Positions 46,401 to 49,400 of a stretch of DNA of 64,000 bases are shown piece after piece. The stretch's first letter is position 1. The number at the start of each line of letters is the position of its first letter. The translations under genes were made by a program, and so were the position numbers. Source of the DNA: Patagioenas fasciata (lineage: Eukaryota > Chordata > Aves > Columbiformes > Columbidae); assembly GCF_037038585.1 (NCBI RefSeq), contig NC_092540.1, positions 10,466,501 through 10,530,500 on the forward strand. The letters run 5' to 3'. Under the pieces are notes generated by a model. That model saw only the letters and a list, made by a program, of their open reading frames with translations, ran no database searches and was not told the DNA's origin.

Positions 46401-49400
46401 AGGATTCTCTGACTCTTTGTCTGTTTGACCCTTGGGAGTGGAGAGAGATCTATGAGTTACTATGTGCTTTGTTATCTATTTGGAAAATGCTGTAAAGGAC
46501 CAGCCTGCAGGCTCAGCTCATGTCTGGCATTTCCCCATGGGAGGGGAGAATCTGCTCGATGACCCAAACTGTAGCACGACACATTAAAGGATATTCACCC
46601 GCCTGTCCTGGGCTCTATTTTTCTGCTCTTCTCCCCAGGTTGTCCCTGTGTGAGAAGGCTTTGGCTGAATATTTGGACATGAAAAGATTGGCCTTTCCCA
46701 GATTTTACTTTGTTTCTTCAGCAGATTGATTGGATATTCTTTCCAATGGCACCAACCCACAGCTGGTAAGCCTTGCACTATGTCACCTTCACATTTTCCA
46801 GCTGTCAGTAATGTCAGGGTGGAAGATGCTGTCTAGGGACTCAGCTGTAGCTTATCCTTTCTTGAGTGCCTTTTCTCCCACCCTCACTTGGATTAACAAT
46901 AACTCTTTCACTGCTGGCCTTCATCTGTCGTCTCTGAAAGGCAATGCGCACACTGTATGTTGTCCCATCTGTCCCTGGTGATGCTTGCAGATGGTTCTGA
47001 AAGCACTGCACAGAGCAGAGCTATGTTCTTGATACCATAAAAACAGTGGGTTTGTTTCTGCTGGGATACAGTGAGGTTGGGGGAAACCATTTCTTGAGGA
47101 TCTCAGCCAAAACTTGTTGCTGAGCTTGGTTCCCCAAGCTGGGATGCCAGCAAACAGCATCTGTTGTTGAAAGAGCCACAGACCGATCATTCAAATGTGA
47201 CAGTGTTGACAACCGAGGGCTTGGAGACGTCTCTGTTTTTAGGCAGAGGAGACATCTGCTAGTCAGCCACTCCTTCCTTCCCCCATGCAAAGGTCTTTGG
47301 GATGGCCTGTTTACAGGGGAAGAGCAGAACACAGCCTGGAAGAGGTAAGACAGCTGGTGGTCAGACAGTGGCTGTGGCCAAGGCAGGACTTCCTTGGGTT
47401 GCCACCCACCCCTGCACAGCTCTGCTTGGCCTTGTTTGGGACGCATCTTTTATTCAGAGGTTGGTGCGTAAAACCAGTCAAAACGTTCACAGCAAAAGGC
47501 GAGTGTTGGATGATGAACAAAGTCCTAATTCTGTCTTTTGGTAGCGAGTATTTTCACTTTCTTCAGGCTTTCCACCATTTTCAGTATTGATGTGAGCACA
47601 GGAATGGAGCAGGTTTGCATGTGTATTTGGAAATGCTGTTGTTTCCCTCTAACCTTTAACGCTGCTTCTATCTGTGTCTGCTGCTGGGTGATTTCAGCCC
47701 ACAGAGTATCATAAATACATAGTTGATTGATATTTAAAATGAAGAGGAAAAAAAAAACACAGGAAGCAAAGATACTGTGTTGAAATGCTCTGTTGAGTAA
47801 GAAGAAATTCCTGGTGTTTTCTGTTATTCAAAAGTATTTGCAGTAAAATCAAAGTAAATGTCAAGCAGTATCATACATAGATACACTCTCAGCCTTCCCA
47901 ATGTAGTTTCAAAGTCTGATGATTCCTAAAGGAGGATTAAATACACAATGACATTATCCTCGTGAACTGGGTGCTGAACTTGTGCAGATTCAGGTGCGTT
48001 CGGGCTCTGGCAGCAGGATCGCAGCAAGTGCTGGGGTTGTGTCCGAACCCTCCAGACTGGACAGGGTCTGGGAAGGGGCAGCTGGGGATTTGTGACCAGA
48101 AGCTTCTACATGTAAGAAAAAGTTTCTACGGTTTACTTACGGTTTGAAAAGAGATAAGCTTATGGCCTCAAGATACGCTTAATGGCCTCAAGTTGTGCCA
48201 GGGGAGGTTCAGATTGGATATTGTAAAAAAATTCTTCCCAGAAAGGGCTGTGGGGCATGGGAACAGGCTGCCCAGGGCAGTGCTGGAGTCACCATCCCTG
48301 GAGGGGTTTAAAAGACATTTAGACGAGGTTCTTAGGGACATGGATTAGTGCCAGAGCTAGGGTATGGCTGGACTTGATCCTGAGGGTTTCTTCCACCCAA
48401 AATGATTCTGTGATCTGGGGGGATGCTGAGTGCCCTGTGCTTCTCAGAGTCACTTAGCACCTCCCAGGGTTTGGCCCTGCTTGTATGTGTGTGAGAAGCT
48501 GCGTCCACTTGCAGCACAGCTCATGAGAGGGAGGGTTGTAGTTCTTTGTGAGTCAGTGAGTCAGAATTAGATGGACAAATCCACCTCCACCCTTCCTTCT
48601 CTGAAAGCATCAGAGCATTGGGCATCTCACGCAGAATCCCAGAATGTCAGGGTTGGAAGGGACCTGGAAAGCTCATCCAGTCCAATCCCCCCATGGAGCA
48701 GGAACACCCAGCTGAGGTTCCACAGGAAGGGGTCCAGGGGGTTTGAATGTCTGCAGAGAAGGAGACTCCACAACCTCCCTGGGCAGCCTGGGCCAGGCTC
48801 TGCCACCCTCACTGAGAAGAAGTTTCTTCTCCAATTTAAGTGGAACCTCCTGTGTTCCAGTTTGAACCCATTCCCCCTTGTCCTATCACTGGTTGTCACC
48901 GAGGAGAGCCTGGCTCCATCCTCCTGACACTCCCCCTTTATATATCTGTAAACATGAATGAGTCCCCCCTCAGTCTCCTCTTGTCCAGCTCCAGAGCCCC
49001 AGCTCCCTCAGCCTTTCCTCACACGGGAGATGCTCCACTCCCTTCAGCATCTTGGTGGCTGCGCTGGACTCTCTGCAGCAGTTCCCTGTCCTTCTGGAAC
49101 TGAGGGGCCACAACTGGACACAATATTCCAGGTGTGGTCTCCCCAGGGCAGAGCAGAGGGGCAGGAGAACCTCTCTGACCCACTGACCACCCCCTTCTAA
49201 CCCATCCCAGGTACCATTGGCCTTCCTGGCCACAAGGGCCCAGTGCTGGCTCATGGTCACCCTGCTGTCCCCAGGACCCCCAGGTCCCTTTCCCTCATTT
49301 CTCATCTCCCCTATGGGAGTTTTTCTACCTCTCTGCTGTAATTGAGAGAGGCAGCTCCTGTCTGGGACTGCTTTGGGAGCTTCCCCTTTCTGTGGGGACG

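Follow-up and report, generated by a model that had tools for sequence, protein, structure and literature searches.

Background

When premature stop codons interrupt an otherwise well-preserved gene, is the species losing that gene, or is the interrupted copy one of several? This question is raised by a stretch of 64,000 nucleotides from the genome of the band-tailed pigeon, Patagioenas fasciata (hereafter the window; C28:10466501-10530500, C28 and similar labels denoting contigs). It contains a gene resembling DNAH9, which codes for an outer-arm dynein heavy chain of motile cilia, with a TGA in exon 22 and a TAG in exon 15. An earlier note on this DNA, made from its letters, read the two stops as the mark of recently relaxed constraint. 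Our analyses support, with a probability of roughly nine in ten, that the gene in the window is an unprocessed duplicate of DNAH9, truncated at its 3' end and belonging to a dispersed family, and that the stops reflect the decay of this duplicate. The bird itself has probably not lost DNAH9.

The DNAH9-like gene model and its two stop codons

Exons were placed under the guidance of the human DNAH9 and bovine DNAH17 chains from the PDB. The resulting model comprises 32 exons (10134-61892) and 6531 bp of coding sequence, in agreement with the exon number and the 6.5 kb of coding sequence given in the earlier note. The features discussed here are the following:

10134..61892, + strand: DNAH9-like gene copy, exons 1-32, 2177 codons, two stops
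34599..34734, + strand: exon 15 of the DNAH9-like model, 136 bp
34716..34718, + strand: TAG replacing a conserved Tyr codon (TAC in 84/90 copies)
41495..42365, + strand: exon 20, 871 bp, used for the selection test over 89/93 copies
46639..46765, + strand: exon 22 of the DNAH9-like model, 127 bp
46727..46729, + strand: TGA replacing a conserved Leu codon (TTA in 75/93 copies, GTA in 6)
54802..54958, + strand: exon 27, with the AAA1 Walker A loop GPAGTGKT
59265..59267, + strand: TCC (Ser) at conceptual residue 1963 (Phe in relatives)

Direct reading of the sequence places the TGA in frame between SSAD and LDILSNG (positions 46712-46750 read GTT TCT TCA GCA GAT TGA TTG GAT ATT CTT TCC AAT GGC), inside an exon bounded by AG at 46637-46638 and GT at 46766-46767. 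This bears out the claim of a premature TGA after which the frame continues intact. A scan of all 32 exons found exactly two stops, corresponding to conceptual residues 878 (TAG) and 1585 (TGA), and no frameshift, the frame remaining open downstream of both. All 31 introns have GT...AG ends, donors having been restricted to GT or GC and acceptors to AG during placement. Exon 10 has a weak donor, with no sign of its loss. Two nonsense codons free of indels or splice loss, as the earlier note described, are indeed what the model contains. The window copy consequently lacks the stop-free open frame of a working gene, and its 31 introns set it apart from a processed pseudogene. Beyond the right edge of the window, five further exon pieces follow in the next 6.3 kb.

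Elsewhere in the window, a GC-rich stretch (approximately 6650-7190 and 7219-7460), whose translation corresponds to the N-terminus (MRALPAARQ...) of the predicted protein P0023, adjoins an 18-base tandem repeat; the first DNAH9-like exon lies some 3 kb downstream. Open reading frames that are reverse-transcriptase-like or repeated, at 118-1418 and scattered (e.g. 43050-43622), resemble CR1 elements.

Identity of the gene and residues found in its relatives

Human DNAH9 was the best PDB relative in all five queries, with 447, 657, 695, 340 and 1390 bits vs 426, 429, 450, 278 and 1290 for DNAH17, and 1530 of 2162 aligned residues (70.8%) are identical to the human protein. Among the matches listed, the closest protein is DYH9 of Columbina picui (97% over residues 1000-2170), and nearly all best bird matches are named DYH9 or DNAH9, one from Accipiter being named DNAH17. 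A DNAH11 chain is absent from the PDB rows listed. The families PF08385, PF08393 and PF12774 (DHC_N1, DHC_N2 and AAA_6) occur in the expected order on three of the five pieces scanned with Pfam, the other two yielding no family.

At the TGA site, Leu is found in human DNAH9, bovine DNAH17, Columbina picui, P0023, six Columba guinea proteins and every aligning outgroup bird protein (at least 14 of 17). P0023 and P0190 are both predicted proteins annotated as 'dynein axonemal heavy chain 9-like [Patagioenas fasciata]'. The TAG site is Tyr in the human and bovine chains and in the bird proteins aligning there, with one of the six Columba guinea proteins covering the residue. Similarly, residue 1963 is Phe in P0023, Columbina, the six Columba guinea proteins and every aligned outgroup bird (at least 14 of 17).

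Of 1072 bird-invariant residues, 22 are changed in the window copy, compared with 19 of 1041 for P0023 and 9 of 1072 for Columbina. In a leave-one-out control, single outgroup birds showed from 3/1075 to 51/1049 departures; this count alone is therefore no mark of the window copy. Eleven of its changes, F1963S and both stops among them, occur in none of P0023, Columbina and the Columba guinea proteins. Several of the eleven, such as D1280A and T1377A, are seen again in further P. fasciata copies, and P0190 shares the Trp at 1643 and the Ala at 1819 of the window copy.

Copies of the gene throughout the genome

The assembly (1.454 Gb in 359 contigs) was searched with a 35-base pattern over the TGA, the codon being left open and up to two mismatches allowed. 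Exon 22 was found at 93 places on 28 contigs, eight of them on C28; the reversed pattern gave no match in the assembly. The codon is TTA in 75 of these copies, TGA in 12 and GTA in 6. The same approach applied to the exon-15 site revealed 90 places, 84 with TAC and 6 with TAG. Some exon-15 places, such as C33:793820, have no exon-22 partner, so the number of fragments exceeds 93. Exon 5 occurs at a minimum of 73 places, 77 of 979 candidates having been scored. The unprocessed copy in the window is thus a duplicate of sequence present elsewhere in the genome.

For every TAG place there is a corresponding exon-22 copy at a distance of about 12.0 kb. Four copies carry the TAG without the TGA, ten the TGA without the TAG (these ten paired by eye from two lists) and two, the window copy and one on C32, carry both; 16 copies thus bear either stop, and neither stop was found on C22. 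Since copies of all three kinds occur, the stops arose as separate events and were later combined, and the earlier note was right to call them independent. It had also judged a sequencing error unlikely, and error is now excluded in practice, since 12 of the 93 separately assembled exon-22 places have the TGA and 6 of the 90 exon-15 places the TAG. Indeed, base errors in the assembly would have had to produce identical codons on several contigs and on different exon-20 backgrounds, and the probability of this is negligible.

Decay of the only DNAH9 gene of the species would accord with the two stops and with the 11 changes at bird-invariant residues, stops included, that P0023, Columbina and the Columba guinea proteins lack. 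It is highly improbable in a genome where 75 of 93 copies keep the Leu codon and five copies on C22 keep Leu, Tyr, and the AAA4 and C-terminal exons.

Two pairs of copies on C36 (2309134/4020397 and 2667426/4378689) are identical over 1.6 kb and separated by exactly 1,711,263 bp; two pairs on C22 (10602259/11374000 and 11000357/11772098) are likewise identical over 1.6 kb, at an offset of exactly 771,741 bp. These pairs may represent very young large duplications or assembly duplicates.

The copy number could alternatively be an artefact of uncollapsed haplotypes or duplicated scaffolds, and the existence of five copy pairs identical over 1.6 kb, four of them at these repeating offsets, points in that direction. 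Yet the remaining pairs differ, by a mean of 0.5% outside C22, and the copies lie in both orientations and at irregular spacings over 28 contigs, some with indels of their own. Matches to other dynein heavy chains are few, none recurring at tens of places, and the independently assembled genome of Columba guinea has at least nine DNAH9-like predictions on seven contigs, which may be fragments of one gene. We consider such an artefact very unlikely as an explanation of the family as a whole.

Apparent truncation of the copies, and the C22 copies

DNAH9-like C-terminal exons were found as five sets, on C22 only, all 54 candidates having been scored. The AAA4 exon (query residues 38-82; all 93 candidates scored) has 36 DNAH9-like places, five of them on C22. 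Neither the AAA4 exon nor the C-terminal exons have a match at the window copy, which is followed by about 1 Mb of contig to the right and is therefore not cut by a contig end. The single AAA4 place on C28, at 10.77 Mb, lies about 50 kb beyond the copy at 10.717 Mb, and a few AAA4 places (e.g. C13:28.08 Mb) lack an exon-22 match in their vicinity. For the initial piece of exon 33, of which 150 of 201 candidates were scored, there are at least 92 DNAH9-like places; each of the 92, those on C22 included, shows one TAA, and in the window copy this TAA falls just past the exon end, in apparent intron.

Taken together, 88 copies, including that of the window and all 16 stop carriers, appear to be 3'-truncated. 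This assignment relies on absent matches, and copies near contig ends may look truncated merely from the contig stopping. The five C22 copies possess both the AAA4 and the C-terminal exons and retain the Leu and Tyr codons. As far as the C22 exons examined, a minority of the total, are concerned, an intact orthologue is present in the same individual, a finding that the earlier note had named as speaking against its reading.

A copy on C14 (L009, C14:2174776) was considered as the ancestral single copy and rejected, as it has an AAA4 match and no C-terminal match and is another truncated copy. It joins window position 47534 to approximately 50064, skipping 47535-50063, with 99.4% identity on both sides. 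The 29 other copies fetched are collinear with the window throughout their length, to about 48.25 kb.

The open frame after each stop might suggest that the stops are read through or recoded, with TGA as selenocysteine, and that a protein is made. Against this, the stop codons are of two kinds, relatives and most copies have Leu and Tyr there (Leu in 75/93 copies at the TGA, which is hence no conserved in-frame TGA), and the window copy has no 3' exons; an Rfam scan gave no match at the gathering score within the window, outside which lies the 3' UTR, the expected place of a SECIS element. The chance that such a protein is made is close to nil.

Selection on exon 20

A stretch of 1601 bases covering exon 20 and adjoining intron was fetched from all 93 copies, of which four proved unalignable and were dropped, leaving 89. 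Of the 93 copies, 88 have an open, full-length exon 20; the remaining five show a deletion of 17 bp, an insertion of 5 bp, a larger deletion, a nonsense change and a break within the stretch. Two copies read CGA (Arg), not a stop, at a codon whose consensus is Trp. Among the 89 copies, variants were found at 66 of 688 nonsynonymous, 13 of 182 synonymous and 60 of 700 intron sites. The ratio piN/piS for exon 20 was 1.6, and Fisher tests gave p = 0.38 against synonymous and p = 0.51 against intron sites. When one site was recounted as synonymous on its real background, the counts became 65 and 14 (p = 0.56). In the 84 non-C22 copies, 9 of 74 changes were synonymous vs 15.4 expected from an intron-derived mutation spectrum (p = 0.08), so that amino-acid changes are not lacking outside C22. 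No purifying selection is evident on exon 20 among the copies, a result that applies to the family and to one exon, not to the window copy alone.

The C22 copies look constrained, showing two nonsynonymous to four synonymous variants vs 65:9 elsewhere (Fisher p = 0.0056, or 0.0076 recounted), a comparison of small numbers from five copies that are not independent. Between C22 and the rest there is one fixed synonymous change, no fixed nonsynonymous change and six fixed intron changes. At 193 residues invariant among the outgroups, the C22 copies carry two changes only, both common to all 89 copies. The same two shared changes are the only ones at bird-invariant residues in 17 of the 89 full-length exon-20 copies, of which 12 lie outside C22, and it is conceivable that some dispersed copies are still in use.

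Relaxed constraint, as the earlier note had it, therefore describes the window copy as a duplicate within a family that varies neutrally at exon 20, but decay of DNAH9 in the species is not supported. A gene with 93 exon-22 copies, five of them stop-free on C22 with AAA4 and C-terminal exons, is not one that the species is seen to be losing.

Exchange between copies and mutation bias

Copies outside C22 differ by a mean of 0.50% among themselves and by 1.25% from C22. All four gamete combinations were found in 146 of 741 pairs among 39 sites of the exon-20 stretch, the closest pair being 19 columns apart, and the TAG and TGA sites likewise show all four combinations among the copies. Codons other than TTA cluster by contig, five of the six GTA copies lying on C35 and four of the 12 TGA copies on C42 (permutation p = 0.0003).

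With C22 as outgroup, derived A/T-to-G/C changes outnumber the reverse by 168:39. These counts were taken over 84 non-C22 copies for the exon-20 stretch and 24 copies for the exon-22 stretch, the C14 copy being dropped. By frequency, the ratio is 79:28 in singletons, 85:9 for changes in 2-20 copies and 4:2 in more than 20 copies. GC-biased gene conversion is expected to yield an A/T-to-G/C excess at intermediate frequency, and the lean towards G/C together with the four-gamete pairs is as predicted by gene conversion between copies. Singletons also lean towards G/C, for which conversion alone is no explanation.

On the coding strand, derived A-to-G changes outnumber T-to-C changes by 86 to 43 (p = 1.9e-5), 40 of the 86 standing before T, in stretches corresponding to window positions 41440-43040 and 45213-48247 and their equivalents in the copies. 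An asymmetry of A-to-G over T-to-C is known from germline-transcribed DNA, and germline transcription may underlie the one seen here, for which it is weak evidence. This asymmetry and the very high copy number would also suit truncated copies kept for a purpose, e.g. as germline transcripts or a shortened protein. We regard this as unlikely, given that the protein encoded by exon 20 is not under selection and that exchange between neighbours explains the clustering and sharing of alleles.

Origin of the stop codons

The evidence is best explained by decay within a truncated duplicate. Large segments with the front part of the C22 gene would have been duplicated to a minimum of 27 other contigs. 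Copies without the end of the gene could form no working motor, and selection on them would have stopped. The TGA and the TAG would each have arisen in one copy, and the stop alleles may then have spread via unequal exchange and GC-biased gene conversion or duplication, T-to-G (TTA to TGA) being of the class that GC-biased conversion favours. Working DNAH9 presumably comes from C22. Several points speak against this interpretation: exon 20 is open in most copies (88/93), exon pieces continue to the right of the window copy, and the exact repeating offsets indicate that a few copies may be assembly duplicates.

A broader scenario would see in pigeons of the Columba/Patagioenas group a young, exchanging duplicon that has carried the front part of the gene to dozens of chromosome segments and in which GC-biased conversion spreads nonsense codons, with germline transcription and perhaps a role in sperm or chromosome transmission; we consider it unlikely.

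Other pigeons and known systems

In Columba livia, at least one prediction among the matches listed matches at 92%, and a second one, at 72%, may be a paralogue. Seven Columba guinea predictions (P0058, P0062, P0072, P0073, P0076, P0106 and P0150) and P0147 of Columba livia read exon 25 in another frame (GGGRLRECDEG...), and in P0058, P0072, P0073 and P0147 the Walker A motif contains a Met (GTGKMETT), both features hinting at broken copies in these species too. The DNAH9-like prediction P0072 of Columba guinea runs on into a PF16043 protein, which we take to be QRICH2-like.

PMC10849363, the paper on these pigeon assemblies, reports no contiguous region longer than 100 kb in which cross-species coverage is raised, a result that argues against large duplications confined to one of its two species, and describes unmatched gene models in tandem arrays of high identity. 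The word 'dynein' is absent from its main text, and the 28-base Columba/Streptopelia satellite unit it describes has no match in the window at up to three mismatches. A literature search returned, among the matches listed, no paper describing an amplified DNAH9 in pigeons.

Taken by itself, the stop codon is a case of ordinary decay affecting a partial duplicate. What is unusual is the amplification: a single bird genome contains some ninety copies of the 5' portion of a gene for a motor protein of about 4,480 residues. The observation of two stops was true, yet misleading in a multi-copy gene, and such loci constitute a trap for gene-loss scans and for pigeon annotation. With about 90 nearly identical copies that vary neutrally, alongside a few that seem constrained, the genome also offers a natural experiment on exchange, GC bias and strand-asymmetric mutation.

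The window copy has DNAH9 as its best PDB relative, with 70.8% identity to the human protein, and differs from it in its two stops, its lack of a 3'-exon match and its presence in tens of copies. With unprocessed pseudogenes it has in common introns, in-frame stops, truncation and neutral variation, whereas it is one of about 88 dispersed copies that are still exchanging. Dispersed segmental duplications of partial genes, or duplicons, are known from primate genomes and similarly place partial genes of high identity, subject to gene conversion, on many pieces; here the host is a bird, the gene encodes a cilia motor and the copy number is high. Finally, families shaped by GC-biased conversion show the same A/T-to-G/C excess, stronger at 2-20 copies than in singletons, but the present family differs in that its singletons are biased too and in that A-to-G changes exceed T-to-C changes.
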